Shown: piece after piece, positions 3,465 through 35,325 of the stretch
Numbering within the stretch: position 1 is the first letter of the stretch
Layout of the letters: each line of letters begins with the position of its first letter
Notes under the pieces: generated by a model
What the model saw: the letters and a program-made list of their open reading frames with translations, nothing else
The model's database searches: none
What the model was told of the DNA's origin: nothing
From: Protonemura montana
Lineage: Eukaryota > Arthropoda > Insecta > Plecoptera > Nemouridae
NCBI GenBank assembly: GCA_947568835.1
Contig: OX387610.1
Location: forward strand, 13,249,001 to 13,313,000
Length of the DNA stretch: 64,000 bases
Reading direction: 5' to 3'
Translations under genes and position numbers: made by a program

Positions 3465-6400
3465 CTTTGGGTGCTCCTTGGCGGGGACGAGGACTCTGAT
3501 CGTGACCTTGATCGGCTTGTCTTTGATGATGTCGGCGAAACGCCTCTCCTCGTGGCCAAGTTTATTGCCGCCTCCCGTGAACGGCCGGCAGCCATTTTGT
3601 AGTCTTTCCAGTTCTAAGAGTAAATAAAAAAATATTTACAACAAATCAAACGGAGCTCGAAGACAATGCCCGGTTAACAATTTCTTAATTGTTCGTTAAA
3701 TCTTTTCTGGCTAATCACACTGCACTGAGTCAGGTATTCGATGGGTGACCATCATACACATGACCAGTTCTGTTCTGGAGGGAGGTTGGAGGGATGAAAG
3801 TTAAGCAACACTGCGCTGGGTCAGGTATTGGATGAGTGACCATCATACACATGACCAGTTCTGTTCTGGAGGGAGGTTGGAGGGATGAAAGTTAAGCAAC
3901 ACTGCGCTGGGTCAGGTATTGGATGGGTGACCATCATACACATGACCAGTTCTGTTCTGGAGGGAGGTTGGAGGGATGAAAGTTAAGCAACACTGCGCTG
4001 AGTCAGGTATTGGATGGGTGACCATCATACACATGACCAGTTCTGTTCGGGAGTGAGGTTGGAGGGATGAAAGTTAAGCAACACTGCACTGAGTCAGGTA
4101 TTCGATGGGTGACCATCATACACATGACCAGTTCTGTTCTGGAGAGAGGTTGGAGAGATGAAAGTTAAGCAACACTGCGCTGGGTCAGGTATTGGATGGG
4201 TGACCATCATACACATGACCAGTTCTGTTCGGGAGAGAGGTTGGAGGGATGAAAGTTTAGCAACACTGCGCTGGGTCAGGTATTGGATGGGTGACCATCA
4301 TACACATGACCAGTTCTGTTCTGGAGGGAGGTTGGAGGGATGAAAGTTAAGCAACACTGCGCTGAGTCAGGTATTGGATGGGTGACCATCATACACATGA
4401 CCAGTTCTGTTCGGGAGAGAGGTTGGAGGGATGAAAGTTAAGCAACACTGCGCTGAGTCAGGTATTGGATGGGTGACCATTATACACATGACCAGTTCTG
4501 TTCGGGAGAGAGGTTGGAGGGATGAAAGTTAAGCAACACTGCGCTGAGTCAGGTATTGGATGGGTGACCATTATACACATGACCAGTTCTGTTCGGGAGA
4601 GAGGTTGGAGGGATGAAAGTTTAGCAACACTGCGCTGAGTCAGGTATTGGATGGGTGACCATCATACACATGACCAGTTCTGTTCGGGAGAGAGGTTGGA
4701 GGGATGAAAGTTAAGCAACACTGCGCTGAGTCAGGTATCGGATGGGTGACCATCATACACATGACCAGTTCTGTTCGGGAGAGAGGTTGGAGGGATGAAA
4801 GTTAAGCAACACTGCGCTGAGTCAGGTATTGGATGGGTGACCATTATACACATGACCAGTTCTGTTCGGGAGAGAGGTTGGAGGGATGAAAGTTAAGCAA
4901 CACTGCGCTGAGTCAGGTATTGGATGGGTGACCATTATACACATGACCAGTTCTGTTCGGGAGAGAGGTTGGAGGGATGAAAGTTTAGCAACACTGCGCT
5001 GAGTCAGGTATTGGATGGGTGACCATCATACACATGACCAGTTCTGTTCGGGAGAGAGGTTGGAGGGATGAAAGTTAAGCAACACTGCGCTGAGTCAGGT
5101 ATCGGATGGGTGACCATCACACACATGACCAGTTCTGTTCGGGAGAGAGGTTGGAGTGATAAAAGTTAAGCAACACTGCGCTGAGTCAGGTATCGGATGG
5201 GTGACCATCACACACATGACCAGTACTCTGCCTCAGTGCAACTTTCAAGTGTTCGACTGGCAGAGTTGCTCGCTCTCAAGTTACTTCCGGTGCACTTTTC
5301 TTGCTCAGACAATTTCGACATTGCAATAGGAAAAATAATAAATACACTGACAGCTAGTGATCACGTGTTCGGTTGAGAGCGCTCTCGCTCGGAGCTGGTG
5401 CAAACCCGGTCTAGAGCAAGTTTCTAACCCGTCCCGGTGCATACCAGTCAAAAACGGCATAATTTAGGAAACTTACTTAAGAGATTAATTATGAACTCGT
5501 AATAAAGCGATTTGCACCCAATTCATCATCAAAAGAAAGCAACTATGACTCGACACCAGAAGCTTACAAAGTTTCCAAACGCTTATTTTACCTGGCAAAG
5601 ATAATATCTTAAAAAAACCTCTCTAAAATACACCTAAACTTTGTAAGTCGATGCTCCACTGTGAATGCACACCCGGAGAGGATTAGTTTCTTTCGCTTTT
5701 GACATTCGAAAACGTAATGAATGATAGTTTTTGTTCTGCACAGAGTGAGACGGTAGGTTTAAGCCCGCCATCAACGAGGGCTTAGAAATTCGTAAGCCCT
5801 TAAGCCCCGAGTCCCTATCAAAGAACAGAGCTAGCCGTAGCTAGCCGTAGAATTAAGTATGTTTTGAGTATATACCATTGTTCTGAAGAGTCAATAAATC
5901 ATGGGACGGTGAGGTCGGCAATTGATTGCGACAAAGAAACGAACGTGTCGCGTTTATCTTTCGGTCGTTAAATGTCATCGAAAATGTTTTAAATCATTGT
6001 AAAGTCATTGAGTAATTAGTGAGTTCGCTGCGTCGTTGCGTTTAGGTAACGAGGATACCCCAATTATTCGAGCTATCGTTAGTGAAATTAGGGGTGTGCA
6101 AATGTTTAAGAGCTGAGCAAACACGTAACGTTTTGGAATGTTTTGCTGAGACGCGTCGCGGCTAGCAAATAAAATACTGTTTACTCTGAAACGAATACAA
6201 GTACCAGATTTATTCTTGTGAAAAGATCAAAAATCGCAATCCAGGAAGTCTCATATGTTTAACGCAGGTACCCTTTCAATTAAAGGGATTAACAAGCTTC
6301 GTTGATATAAACATATATATCAATATGACAACGATCTCAATGTAATTTACCTATAAGCTGTATCCATCTACTAATTAATTTCGACCCTCCCAATCCTCTG

Positions 6401-9400
6401 GCAATACTACCATTAGATTCCACTATACACAATATCAGCAACAAATTTGAAAATTTCGGGGAATATCAATCGAAGTCCTTTACCCAGATATGTTTGAAAT
6501 CAGCGAACGTTTTGGCGTGTTGCAAACACCAGATCTCGCGAGCTCGCCGAAGTTAAGCAACACTGCGCTGGATCAGGTATTGGATGAGTGACCGTCATAC
6601 ACATGACCAGTTCTGTTTGGGAGAGAGGTTGGAGGGATGAAAGTTAGTACAGCATCTTCAATCGCCTTGCTTATCAACCTCTCGACAGCATGGATTTGTG
6701 GAGGAATCCTGTTGTTCACGTTGTACCGTCCTTCGGAAGGGACGTTTAGCTGGTGGTCCCCTTGGTGCTCTTCGACAGGAGTAGGCTACGTGCCGGCACC
6801 GGGTTTCCCCTCCCTTCTAGGCTAGGTTATGTCCATCATCATCCACTCATTTCCAATAACAGTTGTCAAAACGGTGCGTCGTTAAGCACAACTAATCAAT
6901 CATTATTGATATCGAAAATTTTAACTGAATAATTTGGTCCACGCCAGCCAACCAATCATTGCTAATAAATTGATCCTGAGTTCGATTACACCCGGATTAA
7001 GTCGTGTGGACAAACAATCGATCCAGCTGCACAATCAATAATGGCCGCCAGCAAACGTCAACACATGCGTTCATAATTCTGCATCAGCGCCTCGGTCGCT
7101 TTGTCCGCGAATACCACAGTTAATTCAATCAGCATTAAATGCATTTGAGCAATGTTGGTGCAGTTAAGTGCATTAACATCACAAGTGGTGTTCGTGCTGG
7201 AAATGGAATGCATGGTGCAAAGTGCAGCATATTTGAGGATCAACTTTCAGGCATAGCAGGTTGATGACGCTAATATCTAGTTTATGTCAAAGTTCGTTAG
7301 ACAGATAATTACTATTTACTTTTTTTTGTAAATAAAAAAATATATATAGTTCCGAATAGAGGGTGTTGAACTGTGTACCTGCACCAGTCTAAAAAAATTT
7401 ATGCCCAAACCTCGATCTCCACCTGTCGCGGTTGTAGCTTTTACCAATTAAGCTACTTGGACACTGGCTTTTTGAGACGATTTCAGTGTATTTGATGAGA
7501 ATGACAGTTCTCCAAGGAGTAGAATCAAGAGGCTGTGAATACTCACAGTCACTTTGATTCTAGTGACGCTATATCACGTCACAACCTGTCAAACTCGAGT
7601 AACTACAATTTGACGTTGGATTCGTTGCTGTATTAGGATGAAATCTGATTTAAATTGCAAACGCTTGCAATGCGCGGGGTAATTCGATCTTGACCTCCAG
7701 TTTAAACTCGTCCAATATTTGCATTTTTCTTTTGTAAATCAATAAGAACAAGTCTGTAAGTACTAAAAATCGTATAGTAATTTTCTCCGGATCTTAACAA
7801 ATCCTATATCTACGGAATTAATCAGTGAATTGTATGGTGAGCTTTGAATTGTGATTGCTAACGAAGCGATTATATCTTCAGCCGAAATCCTTTTATTGTC
7901 ATTGCATTATTAAACCAATAACAATCTATTCCGAGAATTAAGCCGGAACTATTGTTGATAGTGCAATGTTAATGCAGTGATCAGAATGGTACTTAGCTTT
8001 AATTGTTTACTTGACAAATCAATTCATCGCCGTGGAATAAACCAACCCAAAGGCTTGATTGTACCGAGCAAATAATCAGAATAAAGCTAATTCAATCCAG
8101 ATAATGACGTACTATCACAGCGCTAATTTTGAAATGTCTTCGCGAAAAATAGCCGTCAAATATCTACTTTACCAACAAAAAAAAAAACATTCAGTAATTT
8201 AAAATTTTAAGTTACCAAATTTTTGGGGTAATTTTATACCGAAATAGCTAAAACATGTTAGTTCTTCAAATTATTGACCTTGACCTGTAAGTTAAATTCA
8301 TAAAAGATGTCTAGACAATGTAAGTTTGACATGGGCAAGTGCTTTTCTGAACCCTGCTGGGGAACAAATCGACATAGCGCTGTTATTCCGTCTAAATCTG
8401 TATTCAAAATCTGACTGGTTTTCCGTGCATATCAATAATCCTTCAGCACAAAACAATTAGGGACAATCTCACCGTAATAGCCACCGTTCCCGTCCCAGGA
8501 TCTCGAGAGCCAACTGTATGCGTACGTACTCATCTGTCAAGGATGTGGAAATAATTCCAAGAGAAGACCCGCTAATGACTGTAGAGTAGTTAGTGGCATA
8601 TGCTCTCAATTAAACAACCAGTCTGTGGCAGAAACCAGAATCAAGCAGGTAATAATGCATTGAGATCTCGGTGAAGATTCGAGTTCGCTTGACGTGGAGC
8701 TAGTCATTCTTGCCAGGAGTGAAATATTGATGGACGTTACCTAAAAGAAGTTGCTGGCATTTCGGTCTCATCGCTTTTCTCAAAAGTTAACTTTTCTCAG
8801 ATGCTTTTTAAGTTTTTATGAGTTTGGACAATAAAGAATACATAACAAAAGGGATGAGATGCTGATTTTATTTCTAAAACAGATAGACAGGAATTTTCAC
8901 AAATGGGTTACCATAGATTAGATTTTTTTATGTGTAATTTAACTCTAAATATGCAATGTGACCATGTTACGATTCAGAAGTTTTGTATTTCTAGAGTTTA
9001 CATAAATCATTTCTAAATCGACGCGATATCTTCAGAAAAATTATGAAATGTGTTTTAAAATGTCTTGGAAAATTTGAGAAAATGTGCTAACTGTGTCATA
9101 TCTTGAACTTGGGTAAAAAGTTCATTTTTTTGGGGTTAATTTTGGTAATTGGATAATACGTTTTGAAAAGAAACCCTTTAGTCAAATGTGTATCCTTAGA
9201 AATTTACCGGTGCAAAAATCCACTTGAGATCTTTCCCTTTCAAGAAAAAAAAGATATGTATTTTGAAAATAAAATAACTGGATTTTCTTTGGCTCAAATA
9301 GCTTTAAAATAGATAACACCGCAAATTAAAAAGTGGCTAGATATTTTTATTTCCCTTGCAATCTAGAAATCTTAGTCGGATCAAACTAAAAAAAAAAAAA

Positions 9401-12400
9401 CCCAAACAATAATATTTATTCTCCGGCTAGACAAAAACTTTCCACTTAATCTTGTTCAAAAAATAAACCAAACACCCATTTCACCATTTCAATTCCACGC
9501 AATCCCACTCGACAATCACCGGTAATTATAATTGTCTCCAAACTTGCTAGAAATGACAATCAAATTCAGACCCAAAATTTCCACATTTCGACAACACTCA
9601 TCATGAACACTGCAGCATTTACCACCGCTACCTTTGTGCCGCCGAATGCAAACAAGCACATTTACAGAGAGAGAAACCCTCAAACAATCCTCACCCTTTA
9701 ATAAATCTTCCAAGAAGACATTTCCTAGAATGCCGGTCGGCAAAGCTCGAGGAAACTCGCCGAACTTGAAGCGTATGCAACTGTGTGGCATTTGAAATTC
9801 TATTCAGTTCAACTCGGTTCTTGAGTTGGCTGGATCCATGTTTATACCAAAGTCAAAGTTACCAACTGAAGGATATAATTAATGATTCAATAGACTGAAT
9901 GAATATATACTTGACCGTTTGGATAGAATCTAGCACCATAGGGGCAATTGGAAGGAAAATAAAGCATAACATAACTCTAGATGCATTTGAATTGTGCGTA
10001 CATCCTGTGAATTGAGAGCGTAATTAGATATTTGTACGGTTGCAAAGGTGAATTGGTGTGTGTATATATATATATGTGTATTTATATAGAATTCCAAACT
10101 TGAGATTAAAGTCGAGTTTGGTTTGTGTGCATAATTATGTACATATGAAATGCAAAATTGTGGTTGGAAATGTCGAGTACTGAATGCAATTTCATGAGTG
10201 ACGTTAAGCGTATAAAACTTAAATCCAGTTGCCACTCAACGTTTTAATTTTGACGAATTATTGCACCGAAACGATGCATTTCATTCGTGGTTATGTAAAC
10301 GCCCAGGTATGGTGTGTTATTTTGGGACTATTTAAAAATATTATGCAAAATTATCCAGGAAATAAACACATTCGAAGGGTTTAGCGTTTTGAAATTACCG
10401 ATTCTCGTGATATCATTGAAGTTTAGAAACACTTTGCTGGGTCAGGTATTGGATGGGTGACCATCATACACATGACTAGTTCTGTTCGGGAGAGAGGTTG
10501 GAGGGATGAAAGTTATGCAACACTGCGCTGGGTCAGGTATTGGATGGGTGCCCATCATACACATGACTAGTTCTGTTCGGGAGAGAGGTTGGAGGGATGA
10601 AAGTTAAGCAACACTGCGCTGAGTCAGGTATTGAATGAGTGACCATCATACACATGACTAGTTCTGTTCGGGAGAGAGGTTGGAGGGATGAAAGTTAAGC
10701 AACACTGCGCTGAGTCAGGTATTGGATGGGTGACCATCATACACATGACCAGTTCTGTTCGGGAGAGAGGCTGCAGGGATGAAAGTTAGTACAGCAACTT
10801 CATGCGCCTTGCTTATCAACCTCTCGACAGCATGGATTTGTGGAGGAATCCTGTTGTTCGCGTTGTACCGTCCTTCGGAAGGGACGTTTAGCCGGTGGTC
10901 CCCTTGGTGCTCTCCGACAGGAGTATACACCGGGTTTTTCTCTACCTTCTAGGCCAGGTTAGGTTCATCATCATCATCCACTCATTCACCGACGCCATTA
11001 GACCAGTGCCACATGACCCATTGTCAAAACAGTGCGTCCCTAAACACAACAAATCAACCGTAGATACAACTGGATCGTCATGAAATTCCACCGACCCTTT
11101 AAAAGCGTGATTAACTTTGTCTAGTTTCAATCTAGTTAACATGAATGCTACCAAAGCTTCCTAAAACAGAATTGAGTTGAAACGTGAAACGTGGTCACCT
11201 ATCCAGCCCTTGGTGTCCTATTGCTGAACTTTGGTAAACCTTTTATCAAGACCGATCATTGCAGGCTCACCAAAACCTTTCCATTGCACATCACAATTAA
11301 TTAAACTTGTTGCGTTATGCAAAGCCACTCCAGCGAATGTGCAGACACAAAAAACCCGTTACCGAAACAACAAAATTCACTTCCTCGGCAAAGTGTTTTC
11401 TGTTTCAGATACATATTCGTCGCATATGACTTGTGAATGTTTAATAATCATCTCTTCGATGCATGAGACCACTAGCAGTTCTCATCAATACTTTCATCAT
11501 CATTCTGTATTGTCCTGGTGCTAGCTGCCAGCAGTGCGATCATTTTTTTAGCAAATATTGATGGCGTTTTTAGAATGAGTTAATGCCCAGCATTACAATT
11601 TTCTTACTCTCTAGATAAAGTAGGAGTTCAATCAATTGCTATGGCAACAACCAATCACTGGCAGTAAAAGTCAGCTGCTTCTGTGAGTTAGGAGCCTAAC
11701 TCAGAGTTAAAACACATTGTAATGCCGAGTCTAGGCAAACTCTCGACAATCGAAAAGAGCGGATAGTTAAAGTTGATCAGTTTTAACGCATTTTTTTCAA
11801 TATTACAAAATCCAGATAAAAAGATAACTAAGAGGTTGGAGGGATAAAAGTTAAGCAACACTGCGCTGGGTCAGGTATTAGATGGGTGACCATTATACAC
11901 ATGACCAGTTCTGTTCGGGAGAGAGGTTGGAGGGATGAAAGTTAAGCAACACTGCACTGGGTCAGGTATTAGATGGGTGACAATCATACACATGACCAGT
12001 TCTGTTCGGGAGGGAGGTTGGAGGGATGAAAGTTAAGCAACACTGCGCTGGGTCAGGTATTAGATGGGTGACAATCATACACATGACCAGTTCTGTTCGG
12101 GAGGGAGGTTGGAGGGATGAAAGTTAAGCAACACTGCGCTGGGTCAGATATTGGATGGGTGACCATCATACACATGACCAGTTCTGTTCGGGAGAGAGGT
12201 TGGAGGGATGAAAGTTAGTACAGCAACTTCACTCACCTTGCTTATCAACCTCTCGACAGCATGGATTTGTGGAGGAATCCTGTTGTTCGCGTTGTACCGT
12301 CCTTCGGAAGGGACGTTAAGCCGGTGGTCCCCTTGGTCTTCGACAGGAGTAGGCTACGTGCCGGCACTGGATTTCCCCTCCTCCCTTCTAGGTTAGGTTA

Positions 12401-15400
12401 GGTTCATAATCATCATTCACTCATTCACCGACGCCATGAGACCAGTGCCGCATGGCCAGATGTCAAGACAGTGCGTCGTTAAACACAAATAATCAATCAA
12501 TTCTGACTTGGTGCCTATGTGGCACATAAGCGCCAGTTGCCAACAAGTACTGTTAGGTTCTAAACGGAATACTGCAAAAATGGCTCATTAGCAAATTTTT
12601 TTTTTAATTCTTTATTAAAAATGTGAAAGACCTTTAAAGGGCCTTTGAAGGATTTAACATACGCGCAGAAACAATTACATTGCAAAGCGGTAATGAGTGC
12701 TCGTCTGTTAAGAGTTTAAAACACAATTAATTTTGTCTTTTTTAATGATGACAGTTTCGAACTAAATTCACGACTCTCTGTGCAAACGGTCCCGGAGGTG
12801 AATTTTTGTTTTTGTCAACAGGTTAATTAGAAATACTTTGATAAAACTCTAACCTAAAAACGTCTAAGATATAGGAAGCGGTGAATTCTGTCATGCTTTA
12901 AGCCTATGTCCATTTTATTTATTATCGATTTGGTTGATTTTACTGAGAATTCCAAAATCGAGTTTAATAAGTTTTAAACTGGAAAAGTGCTTATAAAAAT
13001 GTTCGGAAAATAAAATATCCTAGAACTCAAAACAAAAATGGCAGCCATCAGCGGCGATGATTTGTAGTATTTTAAAAAAGTGACTGTTGGCCACCACAAA
13101 GCGACCGGTGGCGCCTCTATCGAGAAAGTTTGCTATCTCGCTGCAAGCTGTGCATGGATTAGTTTTGGTAATCTACATTCCACAAATAGTGTTTTATCTT
13201 TGAACGTAACTGCAATCGCATCATGAACATAAAAACCTTTGCAATTCCTGCAAACCTCAAACAATCTTATAATCGATGCAGAGTTGCGAAGCGTTCCACC
13301 GCCACGAACGTTTTTAATATTTTGCTCCGTGGTAACTTTTTGTAGCCGCAAACTGAACATTATCAATTTTGATGCAAAACGAGTTCCATGTCGAACGATG
13401 CGCTCTTTCTGGGTTTGATAATCTCGGAGCATTCTCGTAGACAGAAAGTGTTCTTTGGTTGATTGATTTGCTGTGTTTAGCGACGCACTGTTTTGTCAAC
13501 GGCTACTGTGACACTTTTATGCCGAGTGAGTATGGGGGTGATTTTATAAACTTAACCATATCTAGTAAGTGTCCGCAACACAGGCTAAAGGCACCAAGAG
13601 CTTATCGCTTAACGTCCCTTCCAAAGGACGGTACAACGCGAAAATCAGGATTCCTCCACAAATCCATGCTGTCGAGAGGTTGATAAGCAAGGCGAGTGGA
13701 GTTGCTGTACTAACTTTCATCCCTCCAACCTCTCTCCCGAACAGAACTGGTCATGTGTATGATGGTCACCCATCCAATACCCGACCCAGCGCAGTGTTGC
13801 TTAACTTTCATCCCTCCAACCTCACTCCCGAACAGAACTGGTCATGTGTATGACGGTCACATCATCCAATACCTGACTCAGCGCAGTGTTGCTTAACTTT
13901 CATCCCTCCAACCTCTCTCCCGAACAGAACTGGTCATGTGTATGATGGTCACCCATCCAATACCTGATCCAGCGCAGTGTTTCTTAACTTTCATCCCTCC
14001 AACCTCTCTCCCGAACAGAACTGGCCATGTGTATGATGGTCACCCGTCCAATACCTGACCCAGCGCAGTGTTGCTTAACTTTCATCCCTCCAACCTCACT
14101 CCCGAACAGAACTGGTCATGTGTATGATGGTCACCCATCAAATACCTGACCCAGCGCAGTGTTGCTTAACTTCGGTGTTTCCAACACACCAAGCGGTTCA
14201 AAGCAAGAGCGATCGATGATCAAGTCAAGATGCTGAGGGGTCCAGTCTTGATTACAAGGTTCATTTTGTATTTTTCTCTTTAAGTGTTGAACCTGATCTT
14301 ATGGCGTGTTTTCTTTCTTGAGCAGTTTACAAGCTAAAGTTTCAAGTAGCTTCATCAAAGTGACGTATCAGTATCCTACATCCTACAGGAATTCGAAAAA
14401 ATATATTTCTTTTAAAGTTAAGAATTTTTAGGAGAGTTTTAAGCATAATTCAGAACTTAATTAATATGAAGATTAATAATTTGTTAATTTAAGCTAATTT
14501 TTTTTTTTCTTTCTTGTCTTTAATTTTTATGGCTGCGTATCAGGTCTCAGTCTCCACCAAGAAATGTACACCCTTTTTTAATTAATCTTGTCACGTTAAA
14601 AAAACTAAAAGCCTCGAGTTTATAGGTAAAGCCAGAGGGCCAGCGTTAATGTTAAGCTTTCTGCTGAGCAAACGAGGCCGGCAACACGTGGTAACGGTAG
14701 GTGCCACCCGATGGCGCTTGCTGCTGAGCAAACGAGGCCGGCAACACGTGGTAACGGTAGGTGCCACCCGATGGCGCTTGCTGCTGAGCAAACGAGGCTG
14801 GCAACACGTGGTAACGGTAGGTGCCACCCGATGGCGCTTGCTGCTGAGCAAACGAGACCGGCAACACGTGGTAACGGTAGGTGCCACCCGATGGCGCTTG
14901 CTGCTGAGTAAACGAGGCCGGCAACACGTGGTAACGGTAGGTACCACCCGATGGCGCTTGCTGCTGAGCAAACGAGGCCGGCAACACGTGGTAACGGTAG
15001 GTGCCACCCGATGGCGCTAGCTGCTGAATAAACGAGGCCGGCAACACGTGGTAACGGTAGGTGCCACCCGATGGCGCTTGCTGCTGAGTAAACGAGGCCG
15101 GCAACTCGTGGTAACGGTAGGTGCCACCCGATGGCGCTTGCTGCTGAGTAAACGAGGCCGGCAACATGTGGTAACGGTAGTTACCACCCAAAGGATAAAC
15201 CTCTACAATTAAATAATTACAACTCAAAATAATTCTCAAGTAATTCTACGCATAGATATTTGACAAGAAATAGTAATGTATTAAAATTAAAAAAAAAACG
15301 CATCAAAATTGGACAAAAAAAAATCCTATAACAGTAAGTATAAAGCTTTACAACAAAGCACTGGCTATTTGCAACATTAAGACCAAAGAATCAAATGACT

Positions 15401-18400
15401 ATCAATTAAAAAATCTTTTAAAAATCTTTTTTATTGTAAATGCTTTTTACTCAATTGACCAATTTTTATCTGTAGACACGAGTGTATCATGTATTTCATA
15501 ATCTGTGTATAAACTGATAAGTCTTATACCTTATGGTCAATCGTTACAAGAAAGAAATTATTATTATTATTGTTTTAAGACTCATGTCTACTTGATTTAT
15601 CCTTAGCACTAGTTTTAACAAAACCCATTTCAAATAATTTTTCTTAAAATTATTATTATCATTATTATTATTCTATCGCGATACATGTTTATCAATCGTT
15701 GAGGTTAGCATTAACAAAGATAAATTGAGCGTAAACCAGACTCAAATGTAAGTGAGAAATAACGAAATAAAATTTCTGAAAACTCGAAATGACGGTGACT
15801 CAAATTAGCGGCATCCTCAATTTATTTTGGTAAAAAGATCTAAAAATTATTAACATAATAGACCGCTACAAGTTTTTAGCCAAGTCTCCTTAATTGTAAT
15901 GACGTCATTGCCAGCGACACCCCGTGGTCTTCGGGACTAAATGTTGAAATTTTAAATAGACCTAAACAAAGGGTAATTAAGTGGTCGTAAATTACCCGGT
16001 TGACCCGAAGACGTTGAAGAATTGACCCCGACAGAGAGCTGAGTACAAGGAATAACTCTTCGTGCCAGTCAAGTGGCATAGGCATGTCTGAATTTATCTT
16101 GTTTGCTCGGCTAGAGCTCGGTGTTGTGTCCAAAAGCAAACTCAAAGAATCCCTTATGATGGTTTTTAGACTCATTTCTAGTTGATTTAGCACAAGTTTT
16201 TAGAAAAACTATTTGAACTGGGGTTTGAATGCTAAGTAAAGGGTTACTAAATTTCCCTAAGTTTCGTGACATGTAATAGTTACTTCTTCAGAGGTTTGAG
16301 CAGTCCTAGAATCCCATTTTCAAGTCCCAAAATTAGGGAATCAGATGATTGTCAGCTATTTTCAAGATTGTGATGTTACTTTTAGGTCGCTTAGCTAAAA
16401 TTACTTATTGGTAAATAATGGTGAAATCATGATGGTTTTTAGACTCGTGTCTACTTGATTTATCCTTAGCACAAGTTTTTAGAAAAACTATTTCAACTGG
16501 GGTTTGAATGCTAAGTAAAGGGCTACTAAATTTCATGACGTTTCGTAACATATACTAGTTACTTCTTCAGAGGTTTGAGCAGTCCTAGAATCCCATTTTC
16601 AAGTCCCAAAATTAGGGAATCAGATGATTGTCAGCTATTTTCAAGATTGTGATGTTACTTTTAGGTCGCTTAGCTAAAATTACTTATTGGTAAATAATGG
16701 TGAAATCATGATGGTTTTTAGACTCGTGTCTACTTGATTTATCCTTAGCACAAGTTTTTAGAAAAACTATTTCAACTGGGGTTTGAATGCTAAGTAAAGG
16801 GCTACTAAATTTTCCGAAGTTTCGTGACATGTACTAGCTACTTCTTCAGAGGTTTGAGCAGTCCTAGAATCCCATTTTCAAGTCCCAAAATTAGGTAATC
16901 ACATGATTGTCAGCTATTTTCAAGATTGTGATGTTACTTTTAGGTCGCTTGGCTAAAATTACTTATTGGTAAATAATGGTGAAATCATGATGGTTTTTAG
17001 ACTCATGTCTACTTGATATAAACTTAGCACTAGTTTTGACAAAAACTATTTCAACTGGGTTTTGAATGCTAAGTGAAGAACAACTAAATTTCCCAACGTT
17101 TCGTAACATATACCTGTTACTTCTTCAAGGGTAAGAGCAGTACTGACAATTTTCCGATAACAAAAGAACCACATAGAATTATAACAATTACCAAGTTCAA
17201 GCTTCCTGAATGCATCTAAAGAAAATAATCAGGGTCAATAACTTAAAAACTAATGTATTTTGTATTTTCTGAAATAAAATCCCGAACACATTGGCGTTTT
17301 TTACTAACTAACCAATTATGACCGCATTCAAAACCCATTTCAAATAGTTTTTATTAATGGTGAAATCAGCTTTTCCTATATCTGGAACGAAAGAAAATTA
17401 TCAAATAAGTTTTTTAATCTTTTTTATTATTAACAACACTATAACCGTCTCAAAAATTGATGCACAAACGGGGACACGAACCCCGATCTCCACCTGTCGC
17501 GGGTGTTGCTCTAACCCATTGAGCTACATGGACACTGGCTTTTTGAGACGACTTCAGTGTTTATTGTGTTTGGGCATCAATTTTTGAGACGGTTATAGTG
17601 TTGATACTAATAAAATACCCTGCGCATTGCAAGCGTTTGCAATTTAAATTAGATTTCACCTAAGTTTCTTAATCAATTGCTATGACCACCGCTTTCTAAA
17701 TAAAAATAATGGATAAAACGAACAGACGGAGAAACAGATTCAAAATGCAGGTATGCCTTGAAAATATTTAGGTCTAGAACGGTTTGGCGTGTTGGAAACA
17801 TCGGTCCGCGTGTGGTCACAAAATTTAAACAACACTACGCTGGGTCAGGTATTGGATGGGTGACCACCGAACGGCTTGGCGTGTTGGAAACACCGGTCCT
17901 CGTGAGATCACCTGAAGTTAAGCAACACTGCGCTGAGTCAGGTATTTTATTAGAGACTACCAAACTCATGGTACGGAAGAGAGGTTGGAAGGATTGAAGT
18001 TATTTTAAAAAACTTCACTTCAAAAACACTTTTGATAGGGATGCTAAGCCATTGTACCTATTGGTCCCCTTGGTACCCTTGCTAGGCGCCTAGTGGTGGC
18101 AGGGTCGAAGCCCCTAGTTTAGGTTCTTTTAGTGTTACTACCCGTTACCGACTCTTTTGCTCAGCAGAAAGTTTCCTATTAAAACTGACCCTCTTACTAT
18201 TGATATAAACTCAATGGTAAAGCAAGAAAGAACTGAAGCAAGAACTGTTGTTCACCAGACAACTTTTACTTTTATTTTCCTGGCTTCATTACAAGTTATG
18301 GCAGAAAACATAAATTAAGACAGAATAAATTCAACAAAAGTCGTTCAGTCTATCGATTGCTTTGAAAAGTATTAGCGTACAGCTCAAAGTTGGCTTGAAA

Positions 18401-21400
18401 AATATGATTTTCTAAAGTTTTCAACGTGATCCGATGGATCTAGAGCTTGCATTCAGCTTGTACTAAAACTCTTATCGCTGCAATCACATCGCTTACCGGC
18501 ATCGATGGCCTATTATTATGAGTCGAAATCTCTTCGAGATAAGAGTTATCGTTGATTCGTTCGTTGCGTGCCACAAAAAGTGGTCAAAACCCGCCTTTCT
18601 TTCGTTCTGTTGAGAAAAATAACTGCAGATAATAATCCCACTTTACTGTCCAGTCTGGTAATTTATTAGGCCTATTCAAAGTTTGTATTAAATAATAGAA
18701 TTTTTCTTTTTGTATGAATAAGATATCCTAGCTCCTTCGTAGGTATTTTTTGCGTTGGTTCGGAGAACACCAAAAACTCAAGTGCATTGAATTTTGCAGT
18801 TTGTATGATTTTTTTTCAATACATGCCCATCCTGTCAGGTGTCAACATTTCAACCCGTCTCGACTCGACCATCTAAGCCAAAGATACTAGTATATAATCT
18901 AAGCTGTGTTGCCAACTCACGTACCTACCCCCACCCCTTCCCATCAGGAGGGTCTTTGTTCGATTCATGTCCATCTTGTCAGGTGTCAACATTTCAACCC
19001 GTCTCGACTCGACCATCCAAGCTGTGTTGCCAACTCACGTACCTACCCCCACCCCTTCCCTTCAGGAGGGTCTTTGTTCGATTCATGTCCATCTTGTCAG
19101 GTGTCAACATTTCAACCCGTCTCGACTCGACCATCTAAGCTGTGTTGCCAACTCACTCAACTATCCCGACACCTTCTCGCCAGCGATTTTTGCAAAAACC
19201 CTCGATATAGTTTTTGGGATTCACTGTAGAATGTACTTTATTTTGGCAAATGCTATATACTAATGTATTTTTATGTCAATTTTCTGCATATGCATACTCC
19301 TTTTTTTTTGGTTTATTATTTACTTACCATTTATTATTGGGAAAATGATTTTTTTTTTTAACTTTTGAGTGCCAAATGAAATGCAGTACAATCCGCTAAT
19401 ACCACATTTAGTGCATTATTAATAATTATATTTAGAGAATTCGAAGAGTGCATTTCAGTAATTTTGTTCTGAACAAACCAACGGTCGTCCCACTATTTAA
19501 CGATTTTCATCTGTATTTATTCCAGCTAAAACCTCATATAAAACCGCAAAATGCCCAGCAATATTTTTCTCTCTCTGAACATACAACCTGAACAAATATC
19601 ACCAATTATTTTTTTTGCGTCTGGGCTGTCTCGTTGCTGTTACGGCCACTTTTCAACGCTTCTAGGCGGAAAATTCACCGGGAAATGTATTCGAGTTCTA
19701 GCGGTTTCCCCCCCCCCTTGACGCAGACAAAAAAATATCCTGAATATAAAAAAAAAACGACGGGGTCAGTTCTGAGGTAATACGTCAGAGCAAACTGTAT
19801 AGGTACCGCGTTTTTATAAGCTTATAAACACGAGATATTGTCATCTGAAAATCGATTTAAGGGATGTAGCACCGAATTCGCTTCAAGGGGTACTGAAAAT
19901 TAAATGCCACTGACATTTTTCTAGTTTTTTTTTTTAGAAAAATCTGATGGAAATCTATAAAATGTATCGCATGTTTGCATGACGGTACTGCACGTGAACG
20001 TCATCGTTCGAGTACATAAATCCACGGTGTTGTTGTTTCTGGGGGGGTAAACAAAACTCGAGACGGTGGACAAAACGAAAGAGACACTTCTAGCACAGAC
20101 AACTGTTCTCCTTTATTCAAGACTTTTAGATGTTAAATCGATCGGAGCTTGTCGAAGACACAGGAAATCCACTTGCGTTTTCATCTCGACCTGTCTCCAG
20201 AACGAACCCGTGGTAGAAAAAGGTGTAGCGTCCCGAAAATGAAAACAACACTGCCTTTTGTTGTTCTATTCTTGTCGGAGGCAATCGGAGCCGAACGTCT
20301 GCGTTTTGCAATTTTCGATTATCTAAAAAGCATCAGTTTTGAACAACCATATCACTAATTTCTATCTCATTTTCCAGCAAAGAGAGATTAACGCAAAGAG
20401 AGATTACGTATTTGTTCATTCCACGTTTGAATTTCAAACTTAATTAAATAATTCCGTTGCTTCCCGGTAATGGGTTTTAAAGACACCGATCAAAACTTTG
20501 AGAAAGCTGCAAAACGCAAAAGTTTTCCATATTTAACTAATTTCTTGTAATATGTAATAATGCGTAGTGCCATAGTTTGGTGATCAACAGATTTTCACAA
20601 AATCCTATTTAAGAATTGTAGAATTGTTGATGTACGATTGTTCACCAACCAAAAAGGTCAAAATTGACATGGCAATGAGCACAAGCTTAGCGTACTAGGC
20701 ATTGGGTTGACGATTGATTTGTGGTGTTTAACGACGCGCTGTTTTGACATCTGGCCATGTGGCACTGGTCTAATGGCGTCGGTGATTGAGTGGATAATGA
20801 TGAACCTAATCCAGTCTAGAAGGGAGGAGGGGAAACCCGGTGCCGGCACGTAGCCTACTCCTGTCTGTCGAAGACCAAGGGGACCACCGGCTTAACGTCC
20901 CTTCCCAAGGACGGTACAACGTGAACAGCAGGATTCCTCCACAAATCAATGCTGTCGAGAGATTGATAAGCAAGGCGAATGAAGTTGCTGTACTAACTTT
21001 CATCCCTCCAACCTCTCTCCCGAACAGAACTGGTCATGTGTATGATGGTCACCCATCTAATACTTGACTCAGCGCAGTGTTGCTTAACTTCAATGCTCTC
21101 ACGCCAATTCGTTCGGTTGCTTGTGCTTATGATTATCACTATGTCAATTGCTGGTAAAACTGACCATTTCCAAAACTAAAACCATCCATCAAAAAAAAAT
21201 TCCCCTTTCTTTATTAATTTACCATCTATTCAATCTAAATTGAATCATCAATTTCGTGTGACTTTAGAGACCACACATACACACTCCCAGATAGATGAAT
21301 AGAGCACATGTACACAGAAATAGCCCGCCCTGTTCTAGCCATATGGCACCAAGGTTCGCGCCCTACCGTCGAAGATAGGGTCATTAATACCAAAGACGGG

Positions 21401-24400: not shown

Positions 24401-25351
24401 AATTACTTTTTGAAGGGTAGGAAAATTGAAGATTATGCTTCACTCGCTAAGTCAGTAAAAATAAGTATTTTTCTAACCCTTGGTCATGGAACGGAAACAA
24501 ATCAGTGCAAATCGGTCTTGCAATATTAAAATTCAGCTACTCTCAATATTCAGTCATAACCCTGCATTGCTACAGTCTAGCCCGTGAGAGAAGATACCAG
24601 CAGAAGGACTGTCCCCTGCATTGCTACAGTCTAGCCCGTGAGAGAAGATACCAGCACAAGGACTGTCCCCTGCATTGCTACAGTCTAGCCCGTGAGAGAA
24701 GATACCAGCACAAGGACTGTCCCCTGCATTGCTACAGTCTAGCCCGTGAGAGAAGATACCAGCACAAGGACTGTCCCCTGCATTGCTACAGTCTAGCTCG
24801 TGAGAGAAGATACTAGCACAAGGACTGTCCCTGCATTGCTACAGTCTAGCCCGTGAGAGAAGATACCAGCACAAGGACTGTCCCTTGCATTGCTACAGTC
24901 TAGCCCGTGAGAGAAGATACCAGCACAAGGAATGTCCCTGCATTGCTACAGTCTAGCCCGAGAGATTGAGTAACAAAGTCAATAAAAACGAACAACAACC
25001 TGGTTTAGGCATCTTAAATTCTTCCATCTACAATTCAAGGGCAATAGGTCAAGAAAAGTAACCTACTCAATTATGTCCCACTCAACGAAGACTCCAAAAA
25101 ATGCTTACAAGAACTCAACAACGTCACTTACCGTTCACCAGAAGTTTCTGCGTCAAAGAAAACTGATTTTCACCATTTTTATCTTCTAGCGACAACTTTT
25201 CAGCCATCAACTGCTTGACATGAAGAGCAAGTTGTTGTTGTTGTTGCATCTCACTAACACCCGCGCTATCTTCTATTGTGATGTCTCTTGCCATTGAATA
25301 GCTCTCTCCGTCCAGTACTTCTGATGGCAATTCAGAGCATGGCTCGTCCAT
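3465..25351 (-). CDS. STAR/KHDRBS-family (Sam68-like) RNA-binding protein, first two coding exons, partial
   Basis: Two coding exons join in frame across a 21.5-kb intron. The first (25351-25132) opens after an acceptor at 25365 and ends AACG|GTAAGTGA. The second (3613-3465) follows the acceptor TTTACTCTTAG and ends AAAG|GTAAGG. The split codon restores Glu and gives KLLVNELERLQNG, which matches the Qua1 pattern of Sam68 relatives (MAEKxSLD...LLxNEIEKxQKG). The second exon runs through DKPIKVTIRVLVPAKEHPK, the lead-in to the KH domain, and stops just before the expected FNFVGK exon, a boundary I recall as typical of KHDRBS genes. 123 residues are visible: an acidic N-terminus, a five-Gln run (about residues 36-40), then Qua1 (about 46-80). 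STAR proteins dimerise by Qua1, bind U/A-rich RNA in the nucleus and regulate splicing. The KH core, Qua2 and C-terminus must lie left of position 1; I found none of them in 1-3464. Paralogue (qkr58E, qkr54B, kep1 or KHDRBS1-3) cannot be decided. Confidence 0.87.
3712..5225 (+). repeat. Tandem array of 5S-rRNA-promoter units, about 17 copies of 91 bp
   Basis: The motif AAGCAACACTGCGCTG recurs every 91 bases (3803, 3894, 3985, 4076 ... 5168) with no length change; a degenerate first unit begins near 3712 and the last is cut at about 5225. Each unit contains GTTAAGCAAC (5S box A), TCAGGTATTGG (intermediate element) and GGATGGGTGACC (box C). This is the internal control region of a metazoan 5S rRNA gene, followed by about 45 bases unrelated to 5S. 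Diagnostic variants (TTTAGC at 4257, 4621 and 4985; CATTATAC at pairs of units 364 bases apart) show a four-unit higher-order repeat in the second half. The SINE body found after shorter arrays elsewhere is absent here. Confidence 0.93.
6501..6903 (+). mobile_element. 5S-derived SINE, one head unit, near full length
   Basis: The copy has a 5S-like start (GTTTTGGCGTGTTGCAAACA), one promoter unit ending GGAGGGATGAAAGTT, a body of about 250 bases (including CCTTCGGAAGGGACGTTTAG) and the family 3' end GTGCGTCGTTAAGCAC followed by AATCAATC. It lies in the large KHDRBS intron, antisense to that gene. Its body gives a spurious 62-codon frame. Confidence 0.85.
7330..7690 (-). mobile_element. tRNA-derived SINE, diverged longer copy
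   Basis: The minus strand shows GTCCAAGTAGCTTAATTGGT (A box) and GACAGGTGGAGATCGAGGTT (before a decayed B box) at 7395-7475. The family tail block ATTGCAAACGCTTGCAATGC follows at 7655 in inverted arrangement. A hairpin (AGAATCAA...TTGATTCT, 7522-7564) lies between. Confidence 0.65.
7690..10395. other. KHDRBS intron: unannotated AT-rich sequence
   Basis: No coding similarity. A short match to the A block of the 60-bp-core family (GCCGTCAAATATCTACTTTA) lies at about 8152-8175, and a TG/TA microsatellite at 10055-10080. Confidence 0.5.
10397..11060 (+). mobile_element. 5S-derived SINE with four 91-bp head units
   Basis: A partial 5S start (ACCGATTCTCGTGATATCAT) is followed by four promoter units at 91-bp pitch (about 10431-10786), then the standard body and the 3' end CAACAAATCAACC. 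The body carries a short deletion near 10925 compared with the copy at 12200. It is inserted in the KHDRBS intron. Confidence 0.87.
11831..12502 (+). mobile_element. 5S-derived SINE with four head units, 5' truncated
   Basis: The copy begins inside a unit (AGAGGTTGGAGGGATAAAAG), carries four 91-bp units, then the full body to about 12502 (AATCAATCAA tail). The 5S start region before box A is missing. It lies only about 770 bases downstream of the previous copy, in the same orientation. Confidence 0.87.
13458..14209 (-). mobile_element. 5S-derived SINE with five head units, degraded body
   Basis: In minus orientation, the body's 3' end (GATTGATTTGCTGTG on the plus strand) opens at 13458. The central body is diverged between about 13505 and 13600, and five promoter units follow to 14165. 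The 5S start (complement of GGTGTTTCCAACACACC) ends near 14205. This copy keeps part of the 5' third of 5S. Confidence 0.85.
14625..15205 (-). repeat. 60-bp tandem array (nine units) inside a MITE-like element
   Basis: CTGCTGAGCAAACGAGGCCG recurs exactly every 60 bases from 14661 to 15141, nine units, each containing GGTAACGGTAGGTGCCACCC. The same core occurs once only at 2637-2690, 23610-23680 and 39725-39800, so the array is an expansion within a dispersed element. The element's outer part (D block AGCCAGAGGGCCAGCGTTAA) adjoins the array at 14630. Its other end is recognisable at 15673-15850 beyond later insertions. Because 60 is divisible by three, long repetitive frames arise on both strands; I regard them as chance. 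Confidence 0.9.
15325..15500 (+). mobile_element. Degraded LINE C-terminal fragment
   Basis: Plus-strand pieces read SIKLYNKALAIC, LKNLLKIFFI and FYSIDQFLSV, the same tail pattern as at 421-606, with weaker similarity. It lies between the two halves of the 60-bp-core element. Confidence 0.5.
15570..15645 (+). mobile_element. End fragment of the 279-bp-unit MITE-like family
   Basis: AAGACTCATGTCTACTTGAT followed by CCTTAGCACTAGTTTTAACA matches the start of the unit at 16156. The fragment is interposed between the two halves of the 60-bp-core element. Confidence 0.6.
15673..15850 (-). mobile_element. Second part of the 60-bp-core MITE-like element
   Basis: CGCGATACATGTTTATCAAT, GAGCGTAAACCAGACTCAAA and GAAATAACGAAATAAAATTT are the reverse complement of segments of the copy at 23340-23735. 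The block order matches a minus-oriented element whose 60-bp part is the array at 14661. About 470 bases of later insertions separate the two halves. Confidence 0.7.
16150..17360 (+). mobile_element. MITE-like element with an internal 279-bp triplication
   Basis: ATGATGGTTTTTAGACTC occurs at 16156, 16429, 16708 and 16987; units are 273, 279 and 279 bases and the last is followed by the rest of the element (to ACTAACTAACCAATTATG near 17330). A single-unit version of the same element lies in opposite orientation at 58610-58935, sharing TTGGCGTTTTTTACTAACTA and the AACGTTTCGTAAC segment. No coding frame is present. Confidence 0.82.
17425..17672 (-). mobile_element. tRNA-derived SINE with best-preserved tRNA head and inverted flank
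   Basis: On the minus strand, TGTAGCTCAATGGGTTAGAG (A box) and GGGGTTCGTGTCCCCG (B box within a T stem-loop) form a tRNA-like cloverleaf at 17458-17540. A 45-base block including AACCGTCTCAAAAATTGATG lies on one side and its reverse complement on the other (17575-17605). The head is therefore flanked by an inverted repeat, and the tail GCATTGCAAGCGTTTGCAAT follows. Confidence 0.75.
17772..18125 (+). mobile_element. 5S-derived SINE with two 5S-like starts in tandem
   Basis: This is the clearest 5S match in the window. GGTTTGGCGTGTTGGAAACA starts at 17781 and the related CGGCTTGGCGTGTTGGAAAC at 17872. Each is followed by a GTCC-CGTG-GATCAC-like segment, then box A, intermediate element and box C. 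The pitch is 92 bases, so here the reiterated unit includes the 5' part of 5S rather than the 45-base spacer seen elsewhere. A degraded body (GGTCCCCTTGGTACCC) can be traced to about 18125. Confidence 0.78.
18660..19195 (+). mobile_element. Element with 118-bp tandem units, copy 1
   Basis: A unique flank (CCTAGCTCCTTCGTAGGTAT; TTGGTTCGGAGAACACCAAA) is followed by repeats containing TTTCAACCCGTCTCGACTCG at 18849, 18993 and 19111. Pitch is 118 bases, with a 26-base insert in the first unit. The units contain CCCCACCCCTTCCCATCAGG. An inverted copy with the same flank is at 31700-32380. Open frames through the array are a by-product of the repeats. Confidence 0.82.
20705..21118 (-). mobile_element. 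5S-derived SINE, one head unit
   Basis: Minus-oriented copy: 3' end at 20705 (GATTGATTTGTGGTGTTTAA on plus), a nearly intact body through 21000, one promoter unit, and a diverged 5S start to about 21118 (TCACGCCAATTCGTTCGG on plus). Confidence 0.85.
21525..22025. repeat. Purine-rich region with loose GAAAACGC-type reiteration
   Basis: The plus strand repeats motifs such as GGAAAACGCATGGAAAATAC, GCGAAAACGCATGAGAGACA, TGGAAAACGCTGGAAAATAT and GAAAAACGATGAAAAACGCT without fixed spacing. The strong purine bias leaves long minus-strand frames open. I see no family match in the window. Confidence 0.55.
22255..22605 (+). mobile_element. LINE C-terminal fragment with (ATT)n tail
   Basis: The frame to TGA at 22562-22564 contains GAKLYNALPNYIKEKKGQAL and SIKEFLIERYFILSKNL, then a 3' tail of ATT repeats (22574-22605), typical of microsatellite-tailed LINEs. 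No polymerase core is present. Confidence 0.65.
23340..23735 (+). mobile_element. 60-bp-core MITE-like element, single-unit copy
   Basis: Block order is GGCCGCCAAATTTCTACTTT, ATCTCAACGATTGATAGACA, the single 60-bp core (GGTGGCACCTACCGTTACCA), then ACGCTGACCCTCTGACTATA. This is the best reference copy in the window for the family. No coding capacity is seen, and terminal repeats and target duplication could not be fixed by eye. Confidence 0.65.
24562..24966 (+). repeat. 54-bp minisatellite, about seven and a half units
   Basis: CTGCATTGCTACAGTCTAGC starts at 24562, 24616, 24670, 24724 and 24778. Later units have lost one base in the CCCC run. Units are nearly identical. The length is a multiple of three, so a repetitive frame stays open for five units. 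The array begins about 165 bases beyond the donor side of the KHDRBS exon at 25132, inside the intron. Confidence 0.93.
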
Positions 25352-27521: not shown

Positions 27522-28318
27522 TCACCGAACGGTTTGGCGTATTGGAAACACTGGTTCTCGTTAGATAAACGAAGTTAAGCAACACTGCGCTGGGTCAGGT
27601 ATTGGATGGGTGGCCATCATACACTTGACCAGTTCTGTTCGGGAGAGAGGTTGGAGGGATGAAAGTTAAGCAACACTGCGCTGAGTCAGGTATTGGATGG
27701 GTGACCATCATACACATGACCAGTTCTGTTCGGGAGAGAGGTTGGAGGGATGAAAGTTAAGCAACACTGCGCTGAGTCAGGTATTGGATGGGTGATCATC
27801 ATACACATGACCAGTTCTGTTCGGGAGAGAGGTTGGAGGGATGAAAGTTAAGCAACACTGCGCTGAGTCAGGTATTGGATGAGTGACCATCATACACATG
27901 ACCAGTTCTGTTCGAGAGAGAGGTTGGAGGGATGAAAGTTAAACAACACTGCGCTGAGTCAGGTATTGGATGGGTGATCATCATACACATGACCAGTTCT
28001 GTTCGGGAGAGAGGTTGGAGGGATGAAAGTTAGTACAGCAACTTCATTCGCCTTGCTTATTAACCTCTCGACAGCATGGATTTGTGGAGGAATCCTGTTG
28101 TTCGCGTTGTACCGTCCTTCGGAAGGGACGTTAAGCCGGTGGTCCGCTTGGTGCTCTTCGACAGGAGTAGGCTACGTGCCAGCACTGAGTTTCCCCTCCT
28201 CGCTTTTTCGACTTGATTAGGTTCATCATCATCCTCTCATTCACCGACGCCATTAGACCCGTGCCGCAAGGCGAGATGTCAAAACAAAGCGTCGTTAAAC
28301 ACCACAATTCAATCAGTC
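27522..28318 (+). mobile_element. 5S-derived SINE, full length, six head units
   Basis: This is the most complete copy. The 5S start ATCACCGAACGGTTTGGCGT is followed by six 91-bp promoter units (about 27573-28030), then the body and the tail CACCACAATTCAATCAGT. It lies in intergenic DNA between the KHDRBS promoter and the tetraspanin. Low divergence between units suggests fairly recent expansion. Confidence 0.88.
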
Positions 28319-31699: not shown

Positions 31700-32380
31700 T
31701 AGGTCAGGGTACATACGTGAATTGGCAACACAGCTTAGATGGTCGAGTCGAGACGGGTTGAAATGTTGACACCTGACAAGATGGACATGAATCGAACAAA
31801 GACCCTCCTGATGGGAAGGGGTGGGGGTACGTACGTGAATTGGCAACACATCTAAGATGGTCGAGTCGAGACGGGTTGAAATGTTGAAACCTGACAAGAT
31901 GGACATGAATCGAACAAAGACCCTCCTGATGGGAAGGGGTGGGGGAAGGTACGTGAATTGGCAACACAGCTTAGATGGTCGAGTCGAGACGGGTTGAAAT
32001 GTTGACACCTGACAAGATGGACATGAATCGAACAAAGACCCTCCTGATGGGAAGGGGTGGGGGTAGGTACGTGAGTTGGCAACACAGCTTAGATGGTCGA
32101 GTCGAGACGGGTTGAAATGTTGACACCTGACAAGATGGGCATGTATTGAACAAAAATCATATAAACTGCAAAATTCAATGCACTTGAGTTTTTGGTGTTC
32201 TCCGAACCAACGCAAAAAAAATACCTACGAAGGAGCTAGGATATCTTATTCATACAAAAAGAAAAATTCTGTTATTAAATACATACTTTGCATAGGCGAG
32301 ACCGGCATCGAGACGGGTTGAAATGTTGACACCTGACAAGATGGACAAGAATCGAACAAAGACCATTCTAATTGCCAATT
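31700..32380 (-). mobile_element. Element with 118-bp tandem units, copy 2 (inverted)
   Basis: GGTCGAGTCGAGACGGGTTG occurs at 31741, 31859, 31977 and 32095, exactly 118 bases apart. The array is then followed by the same unique flank as copy 1 in reverse complement (TTTTGGTGTTCTCCGAACCA). A further partial unit (GACGGGTTGAAATGTTGACA) at about 32310 lies beyond the flank. The copy is intergenic. Confidence 0.82.
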
Positions 32381-33437: not shown

Positions 33438-34125
33438 CTGTTAAACGACGCACTGTTTTGACAACCGGTCATGTGGCGCTGGTCTAATGGCGTCGGTGAA
33501 TGAGTGGATGATTATGATGAACCTAACCTACCTTAGCTTAGAAAGGAGGAGGGGAAACCTGATGCCTGCAAGTAGCCTACTTCTGTAGAAGACCAAGGGG
33601 ACCACCGGCTTAACGTCCCTTCCGAAGGACGGTACAACGCGAACAACAGGATTCCTCCACAAATCCATGCTGTCGAGAGGTTGATAAGCAAGGCGAGTTA
33701 AGTTGCTGTACTAACTTTCATCCCTCAAACATCTCTCCCGAACAGAACTGGTCATGTGTATGATGGCCACCCACCCATCCAATACCTGACCCAGCGTAGT
33801 GTTGCTTAACCTCCATCCCACAAACCTCTCTCCCGAACAGAACTAATCATGTGTATGATGGTCACCCATCCAATACCTGACCCAGCGCAGTGTTGCTTAA
33901 CTTTCATCCCTCCAACCTCTCTCCCAAACAGAACAGGTCATGTGTATGATGGTCACCCATCCAATAACTGACCCAGCGCAGTGTTGCTTAACTTTCATCC
34001 CTCCAACCTCTCTCCCAAACAGAACAGGTCATGTGTATGATGATCACCCATCCAATCACTGACTCTGCGCAGTGTTGCTTAACTTCGGTGATCTTTTCTT
34101 ATAAGCCAATTCGTTCCTTCCTCGA
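33438..34125 (-). mobile_element. 5S-derived SINE with four or five head units
   Basis: Minus orientation. The body's 3' end starts at 33438 (GTTAAACGACGCACTG on plus), the full body runs to about 33730, four to five promoter units follow, and TTAACTTCGGTGATC with a diverged 5S start ends near 34125. A small duplication (CACCCACCCATCC) breaks the 91-bp register of the first unit. Confidence 0.85.
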
Positions 34126-34911: not shown

Positions 34912-35325
34912 TGATTATTGTGTTTAACGACGCACTGTTTCGACAATCGGCCATGTGGCACTAGTCTGATGGCGTCGGTGAATGAGTGGATGACATGAAG
35001 ATGATGATGAACCTTATAACTAACCTAAAACTCGGTTTCGGCACGTAGCCTACTCCTGTTGAAGAACAAGGGTACCACCGATTTAACGTCCCTTCCGAAG
35101 GACGGTACAACGCGAATAACAGGATTCCTCCACAAATCCATGCTGTCGAGAGGTTGATAAGCAAGGCGAGTGAAGTTGCTGTACTAACTTTCATCCCTCC
35201 AACCTCTCTCCCGAACAGAACTGTGTATGATGGTCACCCACCTAATATTTGACCTGGTGCAGTGTTGCTTAACTTTGGTGATCTGAAGAGTACCGGTGTT
35301 ACCAACACGCCAAACTGATAGGTTT
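34912..35325 (-). mobile_element. 5S-derived SINE, one head unit, near full length
   Basis: Minus orientation, from GTGTTTAACGACGCACTG (plus) at about 34918 to the 5S start ACCGGTGTTACCAACACGCC at about 35320. The unit carries small deletions. It ends about 360 bases upstream of the tetraspanin ATG, so it may sit in or near that gene's promoter. Confidence 0.85.

Follow-up and report, generated by a model that had tools for sequence, protein, structure and literature searches.

What is the origin of the free-standing tandem array of 91-bp units with 5S rRNA-like promoter sequence in the genome of the plecopteran insect Protonemura montana, and does this array do anything there? The array is located in a stretch of 64,000 nucleotides (assembly GCA_947568835.1, contig OX387610.1, positions 13,249,001 to 13,313,000; hereafter the window, with positions counted from its first letter). 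A preliminary description, made from the sequence alone, recorded it as about 17 complete 5S internal promoters in exact 91-bp register at 3712-5225, and considered both a cluster of sites that recruit RNA polymerase III (Pol III) and a nascent satellite. We conclude, with a probability of roughly 0.87, that the focal array is a satellite derived from a short interspersed element (SINE), built from the 5S-like promoter segment of a mobile 5S-type SINE of the same genome. The array is one member of a dispersed satellite of this genome, and the promoter boxes are carried along, with no function needed or indicated.

Tandem Repeats Finder detects a period of 91 and 16.6 copies at 3717-5224 on the plus strand, with a score of 2778, which is far beyond chance. 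BLAST extends the array to 3717-5227, and an ungapped comparison of these 1,511 bases with the repeated 91-bp consensus gives a 97.7% match with no insertions or deletions; bases 5225-5227 are ambiguous and could belong either to the array or to its right flank. Thus, the unit number and register initially described hold, and the coordinates are right within a few bases. A block-to-block comparison reveals a four-unit (364-bp) higher-order repeat at 4344-5162 (plus strand). There is a single difference in 364 bases between blocks 4344-4707 and 4708-5071, and there are three between blocks 4435-4798 and 4799-5162; blocks that start left of 4344 show 4 to 11 differences to the next block (6 to 11 for starts at 3798-4162), and the unit-to-unit differences are lowest at lag 4. 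The higher-order repeat, together with the lack of insertions and deletions, supports growth of the array by tandem amplification and not by repeated insertion, as had been surmised along with its origin from a SINE head, and growth in place by unequal exchange is well supported. Integration of a circle composed of complete units was also considered; because 16.60 is not integral, a simple circle is disfavored, but little is excluded by this argument.

The apparent source of the unit is found in the same window. The 91-bp unit is present, in 1 to 5 copies, within nine SINE-like elements, all of which have a tail that begins GTACAGCA, and in most of which the units are preceded by a 5S-like head of about 48 bases, in some cases diverged or incomplete. 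BLAST and sequence reading place one-unit elements at 6550-6646 (plus strand, with head and tail), 20994-21090 (minus strand, with a tail and an incomplete head) and 35185-35276 (minus strand). Four units are found at 10419-10788 (plus strand) and 33712-34085 (minus strand), both with a diverged head and a tail, and at 52221-52591 (minus strand, with head and tail); the element at 11831-12217 (plus strand) has about four units and a tail but no head, its 5' end being inside a unit. Elements with five units are located at 13711-14172 (minus strand, with a tail) and 27572-28032 (plus strand). Together with their heads, the latter element (at 27524-27644) and the one-unit element at 35185-35276 (at 35209-35323) reach the Rfam gathering score for 5S rRNA (RF00001), in keeping with the 5S head and type 1 promoter boxes of SINE3 elements; the focal array lacks this head. 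In the one-unit SINEs, the motif AAGTTA, which is part of box A, is located at the start of the unit and again 91 bases on, immediately before the tail. Among 29 SINE loci of the genome sampled by tail similarity, and hence not by unit number, 97-bp blocks (91 + 6, with AAGTTA at both ends) are present in seven of the eight one-unit copies. A single window carries most of the stages: one-unit copies, mobile copies with few units and a free array. A related 5S-head element at 17760-18003 combines a tandem pair of 5S-like heads with another body, and its head region ends with GAAGTTA.

The likeness to 5S rRNA holds up in an alignment with the 5S rRNA of this genome, in which the initial 44 bases of the unit correspond, without gaps, to positions 49-92, and 35 of the 44 are identical. 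This similarity is compatible also with the array being a degenerate tandem 5S rDNA cluster, or a satellite derived from 5S rDNA without any SINE stage. Such an origin is, however, extremely improbable, given that the remaining 47 bases of the unit are SINE sequence, with the same arrangement in one-unit SINEs that possess both head and tail, and that the true 5S genes, Rfam matches of 108-118 bits, lie in other surroundings.

The SINE is abundant and shows signs of mobility. The 258.5-Mb assembly contains 21,933 junctions between units and 6,518 between a unit and a tail (with at most one mismatch) compared to none for the reversed patterns; at 91 bp each, the unit-unit junctions amount to about 2.0 Mb, or 0.77% of the assembly. 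The unit is present in all 29 sampled SINE loci, in 1 to 16 or more copies. The rounded number of units is 1 in eight loci, 2 in four, 3 in three, 4 in five, 5 in three and 6 in two, and 8, 10, 15 and 16 once each, the last value being a minimum because the array in question (L066) reaches the end of its locus. The repeated unit of the satellite is, accordingly, a portion of a SINE of the same genome, as befits a SINE-derived satellite. Target-site duplications of at least 11 bp flank 8 of the 29 loci vs 1 of 812 swapped pairs, so that in this respect, too, the parent element conforms to SINE3. Four of these eight loci are multi-unit copies (L046, L048, L050 and L054, the duplication at L054 being a low-complexity word); L046, with 4.6 units, begins mid-unit. 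A 24-unit array with a tail at C4:1207375 also begins mid-unit and is flanked by a 12-bp target-site duplication, and the element at C13:2168596 is a SINE with a head, about 37 units (by reading of the edges; 27.7 by matched span) and a tail. In 19 short arrays (at least 3 units), the first and last units differ at 5.9 of 91 bases within a locus and at 5.7 between loci, which suggests that the two end units are older than the insertions. A separate observation is that the one-unit SINE at 2151-2247 of L055 has a 12-bp target-site duplication that is itself unit sequence, this SINE having inserted into an array copy on the other strand.

Genome similarity searches were run for the array, the tails and a second SINE-like family described below, and the 40 best candidates were scored in each case. 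The search with the array, which was started with a query of 1,601 bases and so favors arrays of at least 16.6 units, identifies among these candidates 39 clusters of 16.6 to 123.6 units, with lengths given as matched spans merged over gaps of at most 700 bp. Thus, long head-to-tail arrays are present at many loci, and the focal array is not exceptional in this genome. These arrays are concentrated in the subtelomeric regions, contig ends being taken as chromosome ends: 27 of the 39 are located within 2 Mb of a contig end vs 17.8% expected, and 38 within 4 Mb vs 35.5% expected, the focal array being the exception. According to the BLAST-based edge labels, 14 of the 39 arrays, including the focal one, have neither head nor tail, 11 have only a tail, 5 have both and 2 only a head; the remaining 7 extend past the fetched edge on one side, and one of these has a tail. 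In other words, a terminal unit extended to the SINE end, with a tail or a head, is seen at 19 of the 39 long arrays and is missing at 14, and 6 are incompletely read. By eye, at least two rows keep remnants missed by the label, namely, C5:18700640, which has a head-like stretch, and C14:2693386, which runs into another 5S head. Because shared flanks inflate the swapped control for the long arrays, the target-site statistic rests on the 29 SINE loci.

The flanks of the long arrays point to movement and length change at the DNA level. Four arrays on three contigs have a common 5' flank with 99.8-100% identity over 450 bp, and three of these are alike in the 3' flank, too (98.8-100% identity over about 163 bp). 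The four arrays span 46.6, 51.3, 82.6 and 123.6 units. Near-identical flanks around such different spans imply that, unless the assembly erred, these are copies of one insertion that changed length after segmental duplication. In nine arrays of at least 16 units (237 units in total), the number of differences between units is 2.90 within vs 3.30 between arrays (0 of 500 permutations), and it grows with distance, from 2.54 at lag 1 to 3.15 at lag 12. The genome-wide junctions, the positions and edges of the arrays and the length-variable related arrays all agree with the earlier idea of a nascent satellite, in the sense of a young one.

Could the focal array nevertheless be a functional cluster of Pol III/TFIIIA sites that makes antisense or regulatory RNA beside an exon and is kept by selection? 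An exon-like open reading frame with an acceptor and a donor, as read by eye, is located at about 3465-3613 on the minus strand, and the array starts about 103 bp upstream of its acceptor. The units are, then, antisense to this frame at a distance of about 100 bp, as originally noted, which favors a regulatory role. The name KHDRBS that was given to the gene is unconfirmed: the 52-residue frame has no match in Pfam or the Protein Data Bank, and a motif scan of the window identifies no further KH-type exon. The promoter boxes themselves also lend such a role some credence. Within the limits of Xenopus 5S rRNA, which we take to be 50-64 for box A, 67-72 for the intermediate element and 80-97 for box C, the unit has the same base as the genome's 5S rRNA at 13 of 15 positions of box A and at 13 of 18 positions of box C, all 13 in the first part of the latter (13 of 13), and the motif GGATGGGTGACC is intact at 14 of the 17 sites in the focal array. 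However, the units are not the complete promoters that they were first taken to be: only 3 of the 6 positions of the intermediate element match, and this element is altered, to CTGAGT, in 13 of the 17 focal units (CTGGGT is found in 168 of the 237 long-array units, a set that includes the focal 17). The unit is thus not a Pol III type 1 promoter with intact boxes.

Neither does the pattern of variation single out the boxes. In the focal array, variation is 0.0125 in box A, 0.039 in the intermediate element, 0.039 in box C and 0.019 in the spacer (0.016, 0.039, 0.039 and 0.018, respectively, with a shorter box A). The corresponding values for 378 units elsewhere, after exclusion of units that exceed 14 mismatches (2 of the 380 units from outside the window), are 0.019, 0.055, 0.024 and 0.019; 20 of these units enter twice, as L076 and L077 share sequence with L003 and L007, and without them (358 units) the values are hardly altered (0.019, 0.056, 0.026 and 0.019). 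The slightly lower variation of box A than of the spacer in the focal array would be in line with selection, but it disappears in the units elsewhere, where the two are equal, and in both sets the spacer is less variable than either the intermediate element or box C. The excess of spacer over box variation is not positive, with a circular-shift p of 0.90 in the focal array and rank 80 of 91 elsewhere. The proposal that TFIIIA-type sites are kept by function is therefore not supported by the very comparison of box and spacer substitutions that was put forward with it. Because the copies mutate freely after insertion and the arrays are homogenized, the lack of a difference in variation between boxes and spacer is no proof that the units are inactive; as far as can be judged from the sequence, the comparison only removes an argument for use of the boxes.

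The transcription signals, too, count against a functional cluster. On the plus strand, there is no run of four T inside the array, the first one being at 5296, so that a Pol III transcript would pass through many units, at odds with the many short transcripts initially envisaged. The 5S start region (positions 1-48) is absent from the array; according to a proposal repeated in the accessible part of PMC3272025, type 1 promoters need upstream signals, and retroposed copies are silent or weak, which, combined with this absence, counts against activity. In addition, the array is one of many of its kind. With all these features considered, a functional site cluster is highly improbable, and a function of the focal array is unsupported, nothing in the sequence showing that it has one.

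The surroundings of the focal array bear on how it arrived. Its left flank is single-copy. Its right edge is fused to the body and tail of another SINE-like family at 5228-5465 (plus strand, end approximate), as identified by the genome search, in which 40 places were scored of 800 first-look candidates. Thus, the statement that the array lacks a SINE body is true for its own SINE, but the body and tail of a different family begin right at its edge. One way to account for this arrangement is that array and second body were inserted together, as a chimera formed by template switching during reverse transcription. This route would explain why the array ends where the second family begins its own 43-bp array elsewhere, and multi-unit RNAs of the 5S-type SINE evidently are reverse-transcribed. 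However, no target-site duplication encloses the array plus the second SINE (the longest shared word is 6), and array edges are fused to other repeats elsewhere as well (by eye, C14:2693386), which recombination explains equally. We consider the chimera unlikely; it concerns only the arrival of the array, and the derivation of the satellite from the 5S-type SINE is compatible with it. In two loci, the second family has the 43-bp tandem array at the same place on its 5' side (L071, 1721-2099, 8.8 copies; L072, 1-1533, 35.7 copies), so that internal arrays arise in at least two SINE families of this genome. A search for a tRNA-type promoter in the 43-bp array yields no Rfam match at E-values up to 1, and the tRNA matches in L071 and L072 lie outside it.

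A SINE-derived origin can be cast as a succession of steps. The anatomy of the unit suggests that slippage, template switching or exchange between the two AAGTTA duplicates 91 bp, and such a duplication, mediated by AAGTTA, would rebuild box A at each junction. SINEs with several units then evidently spread as retrotransposons, as indicated by the target-site duplications that flank such copies. At the DNA level, unequal exchange and segmental duplication subsequently change the length and the position of arrays, most of which are near contig ends, and some of the loci described above provide evidence for this. Finally, an array would have reached the focal place without its own head and tail, or would have lost them, and would have become joined to the body of another SINE; the in-place duplication of the four-unit block, as read from the near-identical blocks, completes the proposed series.

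Several observations weigh against this scenario or parts of it. The focal array is the farthest of the 39 from a contig end (4.57 Mb). A bias toward contig ends is also seen in the best-matching SINE tails, of which 16 of 39 lie within 2 Mb and 33 of 39 within 4 Mb, so that part of the end bias of the arrays belongs to the SINE itself. Assembly errors could account for part of the length variation among the four related arrays; the lengths given for these arrays are matched spans, and in one of them the matches are interrupted by a gap of 212 bp. At 21 of the 29 SINE loci, there is no target-site duplication of 11 bp, and none, with a longest shared word of 6, is found around the focal array, either alone or with the second SINE, so that its arrival is unexplained and the array is not classified as a SINE insertion. 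In 25 short arrays, the differences between units are 4.30 within vs 5.15 between loci (0 of 2000 permutations); units being more alike within loci, some might have been added in place, after insertion.

The window contains further repeats, namely, tandem arrays at 37411-39059 (114 bp), 14656-15189 (60 bp), 24560-24965 (54 bp), 16187-17141 (279 bp) and 44193-45278 (60-172 bp units), and a 118-bp tandem family at two places in opposite orientation (18897-19156 and 31707-32154). Two tRNA-like matches above the Rfam gathering score on the minus strand (1642-1714 and 17461-17533) are perhaps heads of tRNA-type SINEs. Elsewhere in the genome, near the start of contig C11 (G000 C11:70-105743, L012-L038), 5S genes recur in mixed orientation with a period of about 9.5 kb, and H2A and H2B peptide motifs are found in several of the fetched loci of this region, which suggests that the 5S genes are embedded in a repeat of histone genes.

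Taken further, the data raise the question whether multiplication of the promoter is itself selected. The promoter segment would then be a variable number tandem repeat (VNTR) of a mobile element in which more units bind more TFIIIA, bring about more transcription and cause more spread, TFIIIA possibly being drawn off the 5S genes; the genome contains at least 20,000 extra 5S-like sites vs 47 5S genes scored (lower bound). We regard this idea as very unlikely; if true, it would make promoter multiplication a selected trait of the SINE and a load on the host. Should SINE transcription depend on the unit number, the copy number of the promoter would offer a measurable trait on which selection acts. 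Independently of this possibility, the four subtelomeric arrays of 47 to 124 units whose 5' flanks are nearly identical represent a natural experiment on the rate of array length change.

The closest known counterparts are the SINE-derived satellites with subtelomeric preference that, in the accessible part of PMC10702118, are described in squamate reptiles. As presented there, these are tandem repeats of a SINE portion that range from a few internal duplications to long arrays, include forms without extended terminal units and show a subtelomeric preference that is stronger in long loci; all these features are shared by the repeats analyzed here. The 67-nt unit of the snake satellite contains promoter box B and part of the body, and the unit in P. 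montana likewise holds a promoter segment. The squamate satellites, however, derive from tRNA-type SINEs, whereas here the source is a 5S-type SINE, the unit spans the positions of all three boxes, multi-unit copies are flanked by target-site duplications, and an array is fused to another SINE family.

SINEs of the 5S type are known from moths and Tribolium, as stated in the accessible parts of PMC3272025 and PMC8010984. By their description, the insect elements HaSE3 (PMC3272025) and PxSE4/PxSE5 (PMC8010984) resemble the parent SINE in that a 5S head with box A, intermediate element and box C is followed by a body and by a tail, which in the parent SINE is putatively LINE-like (LINE, long interspersed element). 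The word "tandem" occurs 0 times in the main text of either paper, whereas here the promoter segment is repeated. The SVA and LAVA elements of apes, as outlined in the accessible part of PMC4432496, are also non-autonomous retrotransposons whose mobile copies include a tandem array of variable length, but their VNTR is a central domain, unlike the 5S-like promoter segment that is repeated in this SINE. The PcP190 satellite of frogs (PMC11675491, accessible part), from which RNA-seq reads are reported, similarly has a 5S-like part in each unit; the word SINE occurs 0 times in the main text of that paper, whereas the unit described here comes from a SINE. Among the papers listed by searches of the open-access literature, we recognized none on a satellite derived from a 5S SINE, which is not proof of absence; the present case would extend SINE-derived satellites from the tRNA-type SINEs of reptiles to a 5S-type SINE. 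Thus, judging by the accessible parts of these sources, the array belongs with the SINE-derived satellites and adds to them a 5S head in the parent element, a unit that covers the positions of all three promoter boxes and target-site duplications around multi-unit copies.
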